This document shows, in pieces, positions 19,928 through 57,814 of a stretch of DNA of 64,000 nt. Source of the stretch: Devosia sp. RR2S18 (GTDB lineage: Bacteria > Pseudomonadota > Alphaproteobacteria > Rhizobiales > Devosiaceae). Position 1 is the stretch's first letter, and every line of letters begins with the position of its first letter. Made by a program: the position numbers and the translations under genes. A model generated the notes under the pieces. That model saw only the letters and a program-made list of their open reading frames with translations, did not search any database and had not been told where the DNA came from. Location of the stretch: the NCBI RefSeq assembly GCF_030177755.1, contig NZ_CP126539.1, positions 2,752,001 to 2,816,000 of the forward strand, given 5' to 3'.

Positions 19928-21246
19928 GGGAGTGTCGGGATTTCCGTGTGTAGGCGGCATAATGGGTAAGAAGGAGTCTCCCCTATGTCGCGACGCAAAG
20001 AACCTGCCATACCGAACGAACTTCTCGACCAGCTCCTGGCTGGCGGTGCGGCCATGGCGTTTGAACAAGGCGGTCTGCTGGATTCGCTGAAGAAGGCGCT
20101 GACTGAGCGTGCCCTGAACGCAGAGATGGACCACCACCTCGCCAGTGGTGAGGGCGCTGGCAACATGCGGAACGGCTATGGCCGCAAAACCGTGACGACC
20201 GAGACCGGCAAGTTGGAGATCGATGTGCCGCGCGACCGGCAGTCGAGCTTTGATCCGCAACTGATCGCCAAGTACCAGCGCCGCTTCCCAGGGTTCGACG
20301 ACAAGATCGTGTCGATGTACGCCCGCGGCATGAGCACCAGGGAGATCGCCGGGCACCTGCGCGATCTGTATGGCATCGATGTATCAGCGGACCTGATCAG
20401 CACCGTGACGGACGCTGTGCTTGATGAAGTCGCCACCTGGCAGCAACGGCCGCTTGACCCGGTTTATCCGCTGATCTTCTTCGATGCGATCCGGGTCAAG
20501 ATCCGCGACGAAGGCATGGTGCGTAACAAGGCGATCCATATTGCTCTGGGAGTGCGCGCCGATGGCGCCAAGGAAGTGCTCGGCCTCTGGCTCGAGCAGA
20601 ATGAAGGTGCCAAGTTCTGGCTGCGGGTGATGAACGAGCTCAGGAACCGCGGCACCGAGGACATCCTCTTGGCCGTTGTTGATGGGCTCAAGGGCTTCCC
20701 CGAGGCAATTACCGCCGTATTCCCCGAGACCGTGGTTCAGACCTGCATCGTCCATCTCCTGCGCAACTCGATGGACTTTGTCTCCTGGAAAGACCGCAAG
20801 GGACTGGCAACGGCGCTCAAGGACATCTACCGCGCGACCGATGCCGATGCTGCCGAAAAGGCGCTCGCGGACTTCGATGCCGGCTCTTGGGGGCAGCGCT
20901 ATCCCGCCATCGGCCAGAGCTGGCGGCGCGCCTGGAGCGAGGTCATCCCGTTCTTTGCCTTCCCTGACGAGGTCCGCAGGATCGTCTACACCACCAACGC
21001 CATAGAGGCGCTAAACTCAAAGCTCCGGCGGGCGGTCAGGGCCAGGGGACACTTCCCCAGCGATGATGCCGCCACCAAGCTGCTTTACCTGATCTTGAAC
21101 CGATCAGAGAAAGAGTGGAAAATGCCGCCACGTGAGTGGTCAATGGCCAAGGCGCAGTTTGCTGTCATCTTTGGCGAGCGCTTCATCAGGGCCATGGCGG
21201 CGTAATGTTTAACCGACCGCCCGCACACGAAATTACTGACACTCCC
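19928..21246 (+). mobile_element. IS256-family element nested in the IS5 transposase
   Basis: 1319 bp. Terminal repeats begin GGGAGTGTC at the left and end GACACTCCC at the right, leading into imperfect repeats with TTTCCGTGTG or TTTCGTGTGC. It is flanked by a perfect 9-bp duplication TACAAAGAT at 19919-19927 and 21247-21255. The transposase is intact, so this copy could be active. It belongs to a different subgroup from the element at 466-1891. Confidence 0.94.
19985..21205 (+). CDS. IS256-family transposase, intact
   Basis: 406 aa, full family length, with AAGGAG upstream. Mutator-type DDE features are visible: FFDAIRVKIRD (first Asp), VVDGLKGFPEAI (second Asp), the CIVHLLRNSMDFV stretch, and TTNAIEALNSKLRRAV with the catalytic Glu. 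No frameshift or stop is seen. It catalyses cut-and-paste or copy-out transposition of the surrounding 1319-bp element. Confidence 0.95.
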   Translation: MSRRKEPAIPNELLDQLLAGGAAMAFEQGGLLDSLKKALTERALNAEMDHHLASGEGAGNMRNGYGRKTVTTETGKLEIDVPRDRQSSFDPQLIAKYQRRFPGFDDKIVSMYARGMSTREIAGHLRDLYGIDVSADLISTVTDAVLDEVATWQQRPLDPVYPLIFFDAIRVKIRDEGMVRNKAIHIALGVRADGAKEVLGLWLEQNEGAKFWLRVMNELRNRGTEDILLAVVDGLKGFPEAITAVFPETVVQTCIVHLLRNSMDFVSWKDRKGLATALKDIYRATDADAAEKALADFDAGSWGQRYPAIGQSWRRAWSEVIPFFAFPDEVRRIVYTTNAIEALNSKLRRAVRARGHFPSDDAATKLLYLILNRSEKEWKMPPREWSMAKAQFAVIFGERFIRAMAA

Positions 21247-21402
21247 TACAAAGATCGCAACCGGATCGAGCGCATGTTCAACCGGCTCAAGCAGTTCAGG
21301 CGCATCGCCACACGCTTTGACAAGACTGCGAAATCCTTCTCGGCCTTCCTCGCCCTAGCCGCTGCAAGGATATGGATGCCGTACTTTGTCAACAGGACCT
21401 AG

Positions 21403-21690: not shown

Positions 21691-22212
21691 CTAGTCGTCG
21701 TCATCATCGTCTTCATCGTCATCGTCGTCATCGTCATCATCGTCATCATCGTCATCGTCATCGCCGTCATTTTCATCATCGTCGTCTTCGTCTTCGTCTT
21801 CGTCTTCGCCATCGCCGTCGCCGTCATTGTCGTCGTCGCCGTCTTCCTCGTCATTCCCGTTGCCGCCGCTGCCATTGGCGCCACCCGTGCCGCCAGCGTT
21901 CCCGTTTTCGCCACCGTTCCCCGTGCCGCCGCCGTTCCCGTTCCCCCCAGCGTTGCCGTTTTCGCCACCGCTGCCGTTGCCGCCGCCATTGCCGTGGCCA
22001 GATCCGGTTCCGGGTTGATCCTCAGCAGGCGATGTCGGGGCACCAAGGGTTGGGCTGTCGCCATCATCGGAACCATCAGAACCGCTTAGCGAGCCAGAGC
22101 TAGCTTCTGCCGCAAATAGCCCGGTAACACCGGGAACAAAGACCGGTGTTTCGGCAGGCGGAGCCGGCGGCGGTGCAACCGGCGGGGGCGGCGCCGGGAG
22201 TTCGCCGGCAAC
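21691..22212 (-). pseudogene. 3' part of a Pro/Gly/Asp-rich secreted-type protein, cut by IS110
   Basis: A minus-strand frame of about 170 codons, open from the IS110 border to TAG at 21691-21693 but without any start codon. The translation is Pro/Ala-rich at first (ELPAPPPPVAPPPAPPAETP), then has a short hydrophobic VFVPGVTGLFAAEASSG, Ser/Asp and Gly/Asn-rich repeats (GNGGGNGSGGENGNAGG), and ends in a run of about 45 residues that are almost all Asp, Glu, Gly or Asn. Codon use keeps GAC and GAT mixed, so it is coding and not only a simple repeat. The N-terminal part was not found beyond the IS cluster. Function unknown; a calcium-rich surface protein is possible. Confidence 0.6.
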
Positions 22213-22217
22213 TGTAT

Positions 22218-23153
22218 TCAGGTAGCCAGGATTTCCCGGAAGTAGGCGCCGTCCGCAACCATACTGTTCAAGACGCTGAGCAGCTTTCTGGCGGTCGCCG
22301 TCAGTGCGGCTTTCACTGGTTTCCCTGCGTCCTGTAACTTTCGCCGGAAGGCTTTGAACGTTGTCGAATGCCTTGAGGCATGCAAGGCAGCAAGATACAG
22401 GACTGTTCTGACGGTTGCCCTTCCGCCGCCGATGACCCGCTTACCCTGTCGCTGTCCACTGTCACGGGCGATCGGAGCGAGACCGGCTAATGCCGCGATC
22501 TTTCGGCGATCCGTCGTGCCGATTTCCGGCAGCTCGGCCATCAAGGTTGCGGAAACGATCATACCTACGCCAGGCACTGATTGAAGCATGCGGTCCGTTT
22601 CCGCTATTTCGGGCGACGATTGGATGATCTCGGCGATCCTGGCCTCGACCTTTGCAATTCGCCGTTCCAGAACCAGGATCAGGCTTTTCATATCGGATCT
22701 GGAATCGCTGTCTGTCGTTTGCTGGAGACGGGTCGCCTCCTGCTTTCGCATTTCAACTAATTGACGGCGCCGGATGATCTGCGCGAGCAGCACTTGCCTG
22801 GTAGCCGAGATCGGGGGCGTCTGTGCCGGCTGCAGCTTCTGTCCAAAGGTCGCGAGCATCCTGGCATCAACGCGGTCGGTCTTGCCGATCACTCCCATGG
22901 CTCTGGCGAAGTCACGCGCTTGGCGAGGATTGACTCGACTGAAGCTGGATTTACCCGCCTCAAGCCCGTCGCGCAGCGCTCGATCGTAACCGCCGCTAGC
23001 CTCAAAGATGACCCATGCTCCCTCGCGCGCAACAGCACTGGCAAAGCTCCGGATTCCGGCTGGAGTGTTCTCGATACGCCGGGCACCATGAGCTGGATGA
23101 TAGATGTCGAGCCAAGCCTTGGCGACATCAACGCCGATGTAAATCTGGTCCAT
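22218..23153 (-). CDS. IS110-family DEDD transposase (bridge-RNA-guided recombinase)
   Basis: 311 aa from the ATG at 23153, preceded by CAGGAGA; a longer frame from 23198 has no good ribosome-binding site. The N-terminal RuvC-like domain shows YIGVDVAKAWLD, FEASGGYDRAL and GKTDRVDARMLA, supplying the D-E-D-D residues. The C-terminal Tnp domain shows SVPGVGMIVSATLMAELPEI and ALAGLAPIARDSGQRQGKR, with the probable nucleophilic Ser in RDSGQ. Family members are now known to recombine DNA under guidance of an RNA from the element's own leader. The gene appears intact. Confidence 0.93.
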   Translation of the reverse strand: MDQIYIGVDVAKAWLDIYHPAHGARRIENTPAGIRSFASAVAREGAWVIFEASGGYDRALRDGLEAGKSSFSRVNPRQARDFARAMGVIGKTDRVDARMLATFGQKLQPAQTPPISATRQVLLAQIIRRRQLVEMRKQEATRLQQTTDSDSRSDMKSLILVLERRIAKVEARIAEIIQSSPEIAETDRMLQSVPGVGMIVSATLMAELPEIGTTDRRKIAALAGLAPIARDSGQRQGKRVIGGGRATVRTVLYLAALHASRHSTTFKAFRRKLQDAGKPVKAALTATARKLLSVLNSMVADGAYFREILAT

Positions 23154-23164
23154 TATGTCTCCTG

Positions 23165-23310
23165 TTCCTGTACTGCGGGGTCTGCGCAACAGCCCCAATC
23201 AACTGTTCAGGATGAACGCGAAAATCGGGTGGCTCCCTTGCCGGCAAACGGGCTTGATCAATGGCCCCGGAGGCTCGCGGGATGCCACCCGCACCATCCA
23301 TAATAACCGA
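23165..23310 (-). ncRNA. Candidate bridge RNA of the IS110 element
   Basis: On the minus strand, CGGGTGGC plus TCCC pairs with GGGA plus GCCACCCG (23279-23291 with 23226-23237, one bulge), enclosing an internal loop closed by a GGGC/GCCC hairpin. The loop's 5' side holds GAGCCTCC (23276-23269), identical to the flank just outside the element (23331-23324). Its 3' side holds GCCGGCAA (minus strand), able to pair with TTGCCGGC of the other flank (22211-22204). A second domain has CCTGAACAGTTG (23211-23200), close to the element's right end, and GGGG/CCCC pairing. This is the two-loop target/donor design of bridge RNAs. Exact RNA ends are not known. Confidence 0.7.
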
Positions 23311-23353
23311 TCTCGCAAAGACAGGAGGCTCCAACTCCTGAGTAGGATGGAGC

Positions 23354-23683
23354 ATGACAAGCAAGACCACGAACAAGTTTTCAGTTGAGGTTCGCGCCCG
23401 AGCAGTGCGCATGGTGCAGGAGCATGGCGAGGATTACCCATCCCGCTGGGCGGCGGTCGTATCGATCGCCGAGAAGATCGGCTGCTCGGCCCAAACCCTC
23501 AATGAGTGGCTGAAGAAGGCCGAGATCGACAGCGGCCGGCGCGCTGGTGTGACCACGGATATGGCCGAGCGGTTGAAGTCTCTGGAGCGGGAGAACCGGG
23601 AGCTGCGGCAGGCCAATGAGATCCTGCGCAAAGCCTCCGCATATTTCGCCCAGGCGGAGCTCGACCGCCCGTTCAAGCGATGA
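23354..23683 (+). CDS. IS3-family transposase OrfA
   Basis: 109 aa HTH protein with the IS3 OrfA pattern: [16 protein letters not shown], a helix-turn-helix around [23 protein letters not shown], then a leucine-zipper region [17 protein letters not shown] and [16 protein letters not shown]. It recognises the terminal repeats and joins OrfB through frameshifting. Its stop overlaps the OrfB start region by 4 bp. Confidence 0.94.
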
Positions 23684-24585
23684 TTGCCTTCATTGATGAG
23701 CACCGGGATGCTTATGGGGTCGAGCCGATCTGCAGAGTTCTGCCGATCGCCCCATCGAGCTACCACGAACGCGTTGCCCAGCGTTGTGATCCTTGCCGGC
23801 GGTCTTCCCGATCCAAGCGCGATGAGGTGCTCAAGCCTGAGATCATGCGTGTGTTTGCCGAGAACTTCGGCGTCTACGGCGTGCGCAAGGTCTGGCGCCA
23901 GATGCAGCGGGAAGGCTTTGATATTGCGCGGTGCAGTGTCGCGCGCCTGATGCGCGATCTGGGACTGCAGGGCGTGATACGGGGCAAGCCGGTGCGCACC
24001 ACGATCAGCGACAAGGCGGCGCCTTGCCCACTCGATCACGTCAATCGCCAGTTCCATGCCCCTGCGCCCAACAGGCTCTGGGTCTCAGATTTTACCTATG
24101 TGGCGACCTGGGCCGGGTTCGCCTATGTGGCTTTCGTGATCGACGTCTATGCCCGCTATATCGTGGGCTGGCGGGTCAGCCGCACCGCCCATGCCAGCTT
24201 CGTTCTAGACGCTCTCGAGCAAGCGATCCACGACCGCCGCCCCATGCATCGCGGGGGTCTGGTTCATCATTCGGATCGCGGGTCGCAATACGTCAGTATT
24301 CGCTACACCGAGCGCCTGGCCGAAGCCGGCATCGAACCGTCTGTGGGCAGCGTTGGCGACAGTTACGACAATGCCTTAGCCGAGAGCATCAACGGTCTTT
24401 ACAAGGCCGAGGTAATTCATCGGAGCGGGCCCTGGCGGAACATCGAAGCCGTCGAGTTCGCCACCCTCGAATGGGTCGACTGGTTCAATCACCGACGACT
24501 GCTGGAGCCCATAGGCAACATCCCGCCAGCCGAAGCTGAGGCAAACTTCTACGGCGCACTGGAACAACCGGCCATGGCCGCATAA
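23680..24585 (+). CDS. IS3-family transposase OrfB (integrase core)
   Basis: 301 aa with the DDE integrase domain: [17 protein letters not shown] (first Asp), [16 protein letters not shown] (second Asp) and [18 protein letters not shown] (Glu), preceded by an HTH_21 part ([16 protein letters not shown]). Intact. In this family it is normally made as an OrfAB fusion by -1 frameshifting in the overlap. Confidence 0.95.
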
Positions 24586-24630
24586 CTCAAACCAAACAGC
24601 CTCCGGATTTCCCGGTGCGGTTCAACTCGC

Positions 24631-57344: not shown

Positions 57345-57814
57345 CGGGATGCTCCTTTGTGCGTGATGCCAATTGAACAAACCTATGGGCATGCAGTTCC
57401 GACGTTGGTTGCAGTTTGTCTTAGGCAAAGAATGCTGAGCTGTCGTTTCAATCGGCATTGATGTTGGTGGAAGGTTGCTATCGGGCAGAGATTGGGGCAA
57501 TAACGGGCTTGTCGTCGGACCCGCTTGGCGGGTGGCTTCTCCGGGCGCCTATCCCCCGGTCAACTCAAGCACAGTATTTGACAGATCTGCGTTCGCGCAT
57601 TGTATCCAGCACCACTGTTCTTCGACCCCTTCTGAATAGCTCTTTTATCCACGGCTTGCCGCATTTGGTGGGCCGATCGCGATAGCAGGATTGTTCCCGC
57701 TACTGAAAGAGCCGGAAGCCACTGGATCACTGCAGCGACGCACCGAGCCGAATGCGGGGCATCTACTCTGCTGCGCATTCCCACGCTGAAGCCCTACTCT
57801 TTACGGAAGAATAA
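57345..57814. other. Divergent intergenic region, lipoprotein / SulP gene
   Basis: 470 bp with no gene or clear repeat. It must hold promoters for both flanking genes. Confidence 0.4.

Follow-up and report, generated by a model that had tools for sequence, protein, structure and literature searches.

The window, which is the whole 64,000-nucleotide stretch of Devosia sp. RR2S18 DNA analyzed here, contains a single IS110-group element, located on the minus strand, that is an insertion sequence with a leader predicted to encode a two-loop bridge RNA. Its exchanged dinucleotide, as read from DNA sequence comparisons, is CC and not GT. It is very probable that this element is mobile and moves by bridge-RNA-guided recombination at a CC core, with a programme for the tips of IS3-family elements; the predicted target of its clade is the subterminal part of the IS3-family terminal inverted repeat. 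Direct support comes from the boundaries of the element, its CC core, the covarying structure of the leader, the matches of the guides to flanks and ends, and repeated insertion into IS3 tips. The features are listed in Table 1.

Table 1. Coordinates of the IS110-group element, its predicted bridge RNA and the adjoining IS3-family element in the window
Feature	Position	Strand	Basis or remarks
IS110-group insertion sequence, without core	22209..23323	-	Flanks of own copies (n = 4) and empty IS3 tips
DEDD transposase/recombinase, 311 aa	22218..23153	-	Pfam, NCBIfam and PDB matches
Non-coding left end predicted to encode the bridge RNA, 170 nt	23154..23323	-	Covarying structure; conserved in relatives
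Predicted target-binding domain	23226..23291	-	Stem arms 23279-23291 and 23226-23237; apical hairpin 23250-23268
Predicted donor-binding domain	23161..23211	-	Basal stem CCUG/CAGG and inner hairpin; helices 3 and 4
Left target guide GAGCCU-CC (final two bases pair core)	23269..23276	-	Fixed-register test
Right target guide GUUUGCC-GG (GG pairs core)	23241..23249	-	Guide-flank tests
Left donor guide ACAGUUG, same as right end ACAGTTG (22209-22215)	23200..23206	-	Changes jointly in relatives
Right donor guide GUACA-GG-A	23166..23173	-	ACA-GG pairs CC-TGT; A pairs target T before core
Left target GAGCCT and core CC (23324-23325)	23324..23331	-	Inside IS3 left inverted repeat
Right target, core CC (22207-22208) and GGCGAAC	22200..22208	-	No recognizable IS3 tip in window copy
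IS3-family element	23324..24624	+	OrfA 23354-23683, OrfB 23680-24585; right tip present, left tip lost or replaced

The element is 1,115 bp long without the core and 1,117 bp with one CC core, and its left end is at 23323. Its 311-aa protein contains the Pfam domains DEDD_Tnp_IS110 and Transposase_20, matches the NCBIfam model "IS110 family RNA-guided transposase", and matches ISCro4 (E = 2e-34) and IS621 (E = 8.7e-34) in the PDB, in agreement with the first-pass annotation, which had named it an IS110 transposase. Residues D9, E51, D93, D96, and S232 align with ISCro4; the roles of the catalytic residues in IS621 are described in PMC11208158. The protein has the DEDD RuvC-like and Tnp domains and the catalytic serine that characterize the IS110 group, and the element has the long non-coding left end 5' of the gene and the short right end of that group (170 nt versus 9 nt), whereas IS1111-group elements carry a long RNA-bearing right end and long subterminal inverted repeats. 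The 170-nt left end is kept in relatives of 79 to 87% DNA identity.

Besides the window copy (L001), the genome carries three further copies: L002 and L003 have one base difference each from L001, at a shared position, and L004 is approximately 99% identical. Insertions of the element and its near relatives number 11, comprising these four, two on plasmids of Rhodobacter sp. CZR27 (L141 and L142), and L143, L144, L145, L146, and L152. The relatives show protein identities of 86 to 92%, excepting L141 and L142, in which the transposase gene is in pieces of 70% and 85%, and L152, with 70% over a contig end. In L141 and L142, the gene is split in two, annotated as a hypothetical protein and a transposase, and the leader and guides are intact. 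Among the best two candidates per genome, a DNA search of 385 genomes of the class gave one match, which was the own genome, and a search of 201 relatives gave 10 matched genomes including the own genome, with G030 being the only other one matched along the entire element. In viral contigs, 42 stretches fitted a pattern, and none of them encodes a relative. A second IS110 element in the genome, L089 (C1:825305-826210), is 39% identical and has a CT core and other guides.

Nine of the 11 insertions lie in an IS3-family terminal inverted repeat, that of the left tip in six cases and that of the right tip in the other three (L002, L145, and L152), a target that the first-pass annotation had missed. 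L152 is readable on one side only, and the IS3 remnants are merely 48 bp at L002 and 60 bp at L141. In the tenth insertion, the window copy, the inner half is in a left IS3 tip, with other DNA outside, and L003 is inserted in unrelated DNA, where the site departs from the left guide at 2 of 8 positions and from the right guide at 1 of 7. The guides GAGCCUCC and GUUUGCCGG are identical across L141 to L146, and the right guide of L152 is one base off. The full 15-base target is present in 5 of the 12 empty left tips, with the other left tips matching at 12 to 14 bases and the right tips matching at 11 to 14. The IS3-family element next to the window copy has an ALIL pseudoknot and one additional full copy in the genome, and its OrfB scores above and its OrfA below the cutoff of the NCBIfam model transpos_IS3.

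Free sites were also sought. For GAGCCTCCGGCAAAC, the own genome offers no free site at up to one mismatch and six sites at two mismatches, versus seven for a reversed control. For the joined site with the core proposed in the first-pass annotation, the own genome has no exact or one-mismatch site, and at two mismatches it has 24 sites, versus 32 in the reversed control. A search of 75 genomes of the genus for the pre-insertion sites of the outer flank of the window copy and of L003 gave low-similarity or partial stretches only. The outer flank of the window copy (22200-22208 and below) is non-IS3 although the inner flank is IS3; recombination between copies may have made it a chimera, or it may be a tip that has decayed.

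Insertion at IS3 tips could also be a matter of descent, with the IS110 element inherited inside IS3 as a composite and its location reflecting hitchhiking rather than guide-directed insertion. The divergences of the IS110 and IS3 parts are correlated (r = 0.82 for 15 pairs of six copies), L001, L004, and L143 could form one composite lineage, and in L144, a 4-bp repeat, GAAC, brackets the IS3 and the IS110 that it contains; the 4-bp flanks of L004, GACT and GATT, differ. However, in a comparison of six occupied and 12 empty IS3 elements over 480 bases, from which L141 with its 60-bp remnant and the right-tip copies were excluded, the occupied elements do not form one clade among the 18 but require four changes, at least two of which are forced by well-supported branches. 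L142 and L144 are discordant, being 91% alike in IS110 and 76% alike in IS3, left and right tips are both used, and relatives with other guides occupy other, matching sites. Composite inheritance is thus an improbable account of the tip location, and guide-directed insertion is the preferred one.

The boundaries of the element are misleading when only occupied sites are compared. The first-pass annotation had proposed a bridge RNA with a GT core, element limits of 22213-23322, and a target of GAGCCTCCT-GT-TGCCGGC. In all four own copies, one junction reads CCT|GT and the opposite one GT|TGCCGGC, which by themselves suggest a GT core common to both junctions, and these copies alone cannot exclude it; the right guide is complementary to TTGCCGGC as well. 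Three of the four own flanks are wholly or partly IS3-family sequence, so empty sites are available for comparison, and the tips of 12 related plasmid IS3 elements, of 93 matched records, were used for this purpose. The element was removed under a CC or a GT core, and the joined flanks were matched ungapped to the best empty IS3 tip. The CC joins of L004, L141, L142, L143, L144, and L146 match at 30, 30, 30, 28, 29, and 30 of 30 bases, respectively, those of the right-tip insertions L002 and L145 match at 27/30 and 26/30, and those of the window copy and L003 match at 25/30 and 20/30, whereas GT joins drop to 18 to 20/30 throughout. The better fit of the CC joins indicates a CC core and an element running from 23323 to 22209, and it was an unoccupied site showing other boundaries that the first-pass annotation itself had named as evidence against its limits. 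The uninterrupted sites read GAGCCT-CC-GGCAAAC or close variants, without GTTGCC and without an extra T, and the T, GT, and TTG that had been assigned to target or core are element sequence. A GT core is therefore highly unlikely.

Across element types, the core and the guides vary together. By reading of the ends, 8 of 17 element types have CC and 9 have CT, L030 among the latter being read from its left end alone. Of the 16 elements with both ends read, 15 have a right target guide that terminates in GG where the core is CC and in AG where it is CT. Repeats near other elements agree in part with the CC boundaries: of 28 copies in six groups, 11 have a second CC or CT join in the flank with at least 21/30 matching bases, and the best GT join among the same 28 copies does not exceed 22/33; the five G238 copies are uninformative in this comparison. 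Mapping the core label on an 18-row protein tree needs three changes, and the tree is still compatible with a single origin of the core type.

A consensus structure from 15 leaders has 29 pairs in four helices, with 95.8% of cells paired and 15 pairs changed on both sides. Two-sided changes fall in 9 of the 13 pairs of helix 1, in 3 of the 4 pairs of helix 2, and in none of helix 3. Cells with two-sided changes number 51, compared with a shuffled mean of 16.8, and the covariation score is 0.367, compared with 0.158 for shuffled leaders; none of 500 shuffles reaches either value. Four of five structure measures were reached by 0/500 shuffles and the fifth by 8/500, although kinship among sequences can beat shuffles without structure; slid controls paired 35 to 52% of cells. 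A single-sequence fold of the leader shows no unusual stability (z = -1.21, with 24/200 shuffles as good), and an Rfam search of the leader gave no family at the gathering score. Homologous leaders, which the first-pass annotation had proposed as a check of its two-loop RNA, thus covary in structure, and their loops covary with their flanks. The 12-bp stem that it had described is present but carries a bulged A.

In the target loop, GAGCCUCC lies 5' and GUUUGCCGG lies 3', each ending in bases that would pair with CC, and in the CC register there is one G-U wobble in the guide pairing at the window's own flank. The matches noticed earlier are present in the sequence: GAGCCTCC occurs in the loop (23269-23276, minus strand) and at the flank (23324-23331), GCCGGCAA occurs in the loop, and TTGCCGGC lies at 22204-22211. 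TTGCCGGCAA equals its own reverse complement and so by itself leaves the strand ambiguous; the strand is established by relatives whose guides are not palindromic. The right target guide is followed by a putative handshake base, C at 23240, which is complementary to the last donor base, G. With places assigned by eye, 15 of 16 elements show this complementarity for the target-loop handshake base, the pair being T-A rather than C-G in one of them; the donor-loop handshake is Watson-Crick in 14 of 17 counting either candidate copy, mostly G-C and hence weakly informative. Handshake bases pairing the other DNA beside the core are a character of the IS110 group, and those of IS621 pair the partner DNA after strand exchange (PMC11208158).

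The donor loop contains ACAGUUG, with ACAGG located on the 3' side. The sequence CCTGAACAGTTG, which the first-pass annotation had likened to the right end, is found at 23200-23211, and the left donor guide and the right end vary together in relatives (TTG, TCG, ATG, and GGATA). This guide is followed by AU, not CC; the predicted RNA would otherwise pair both strands of target and donor including the core, as is typical of the IS110 group. The earlier assignment of AGAC as the right donor guide is not supported: this tetramer lies in the donor hairpin, and the stretch that varies with the left end among relatives is ACA-GG, located 3' in the donor loop. On the basis of the basal stem, the right donor guide is probably the copy given in Table 1 rather than a second possible copy at 23160-23165.

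Guide-flank matching was tested by permutation in 16 elements with both ends readable, with ends read by eye for single-copy elements and set by comparison of copies at different places for G080, G238, G347, G234, G320, and G159. The left flank with core has a mean match of 7.44 to the own leader and 5.05 to other leaders, and the right flank has means of 6.88 and 4.97, respectively; the own-flank matching (left, right, and sum) was reached by 0/100,000 permutations, which upholds the earlier claim that the target loop matches both flanks. The own leader is best or tied in 11/16 cases on the left, 9/16 on the right, and 14/16 for the sum, and two of the best matches, the left one of L025 and the right one of L027, are misplaced. 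In a fixed register in nine elements, the left guide matches its own flank at 7.44 of 9 bases and others at 3.94 (0/200,000 permutations), and the right guide has values of 6.89 and 3.64 (1/200,000 permutations). A cruder test without chosen ends used 30 leaders (34 loci, minus two skipped and two duplicates), 14 of which were excluded from the 16-element test as reading both ends by eye failed or was not attempted. Its mean was reached by 0 (left) and 3 (right) of 20,000 permutations, with only 4/30 leaders on the left and 3/30 on the right above the 95th percentile of mismatched pairs. In a fresh set of six elements, drawn from nine new element types (17 loci) of which two had no right end by pattern and one had no usable leader, the right-guide signal is weak, with 39/720 permutations reaching the observed mean.

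Some relatives have inserted into leaders of their own kind. L027, which fails the fixed register too, is located within the guide gene of a sibling. L069 (G182, same order; left end at approximately 830 of the locus) is an IS110 relative inside the left target guide of another copy's bridge-RNA gene, and its joined flanks match its own leader with 88% identity over 166 nt. As a guide is a copy of its target, a guide gene can be struck by its own system. L062 (G238) has tandem left ends 52 bp apart, at 768 and 820 (0-based, oriented with the transposase); the second begins at the left target guide of the first, and the right flank does not continue that leader.

The AGGAG ribosome-binding site of the transposase gene is overlapped by the 3' end of the donor domain (window 23160-23172, by reading of the sequence), so that RNA folding could compete with transposase translation. 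That the leader is merely a structured 5' untranslated region controlling the transposase, as the overlap of its 3' basal stem with this site might suggest, is extremely improbable given the covariation of guides with flanks and ends, which is unexpected for pure translation control.

For a bridge RNA, transcription, recombinase binding, and strand exchange may be envisaged by analogy with IS621; cleavage and an effect on the IS3 element are inferred as well. On circularization, the right end (TTG), the CC core, and the left end would form a promoter, TTGCCT-N17-TATTAT, that would transcribe the leader; under a CC core, the circle junction would read ACAGTTG-CC-TGTCTTTG. The first RNA loop would pair both strands of GAGCCT-CC-GGCAAAC and the second would pair the joined ends ACAGTTG-CC-TGT, and the recombinase would exchange strands at CC. 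Insertion leaves the outer 20 bases of the IS3 tip and the core GG in place, and the IS3 may be either disabled or able to carry the IS110 element along. The junction promoter has 9/12 consensus bases with 17-base spacing, compared with 6/12 at the integrated left end, and a score of at least 9/12 occurs in 0.9% of random 60-mers from the window. In relatives (n = 15), the promoter score is 9 in two cases, one of which lies away from the junction, and 6 to 8 in 12 others; the last relative yielded no promoter.

The element resembles IS621 and ISCro4 in its protein family, long left end upstream of the gene, two-loop RNA, core-including guides, handshake bases, and junction promoter (PMC11208160 and PMC11208158), the ISCro4 comparison being based on the PDB entry. 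It differs from the IS621-like subgroup, which has a CT core, in its CC core, and the right guides show a corresponding G. According to PMC11208158, the second core base, T, is almost invariant in IS621 and related orthologues. The chances appear about even that some IS110 elements naturally use a CC core for recombination, with their guides changed to match, and that the window clade thereby specializes on the terminal repeats of IS3-family elements, where it spares the outer 20 bp of the tip and the core GG and so immobilizes IS3 or travels with it. If true, such core use would show that the near-invariant T of the IS621 core can be dispensed with. Bridge recombinases are under development for large DNA edits, in which core preference limits the usable sites, and natural CC-core enzymes related to solved ones would be direct starting material for testing this limit.

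RNA-guided insertion is already known, and IS110-family elements that target other transposons have been described (ISEc21 and IS4321). ISEc21, according to PMC11187229, is an IS110-type element whose RNA (seekRNA) directs it into IS3-family elements, but its target is the transposase coding region around the second D of the DDE motif, whereas that of the window element is the terminal inverted repeat. IS4321 and IS5075 likewise insert in terminal inverted repeats of another transposon family (same source, in part), but they belong to the IS1111 group and target the Tn21 family, in contrast to the IS110 group and IS3 target of the window element. Targeting of REP sequences is described for ISPpu9, ISPpu10, ISPa11, and others (PMC1525189, in part), and relatives G080, G347, and G234, with CC or CT cores, are similarly located in REP-like repeated palindromes as judged by eye, whereas the window clade targets IS3 tips. 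In the open-access main texts searched, no IS110 element targeting IS3-family terminal repeats and no CC core was found. The IS3-tip target is an unusually tidy example, and with identical guides in six fully read relatives, it offers a clean case of one transposon living on the ends of another. In addition, section 13 of PMC11187229 notes that a number of listed element ends are possibly incorrect and that deciding them requires uninterrupted target sites. The ends of the present element, corrected by empty sites, are such a case: they were unreadable from occupied sites alone, and the shared GT resembled a core until the empty sites were found.

Elsewhere in the window, a Mutator-type transposase gene (Pfam Transposase_mut) occupies 19985-21402, and a short open frame adjoining it resembles, by eye, part of another transposase, which suggests that the area is an insertion sequence cluster. 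Positions 57514-57565 match the Rfam sul1 RNA family with 55.2 bits.
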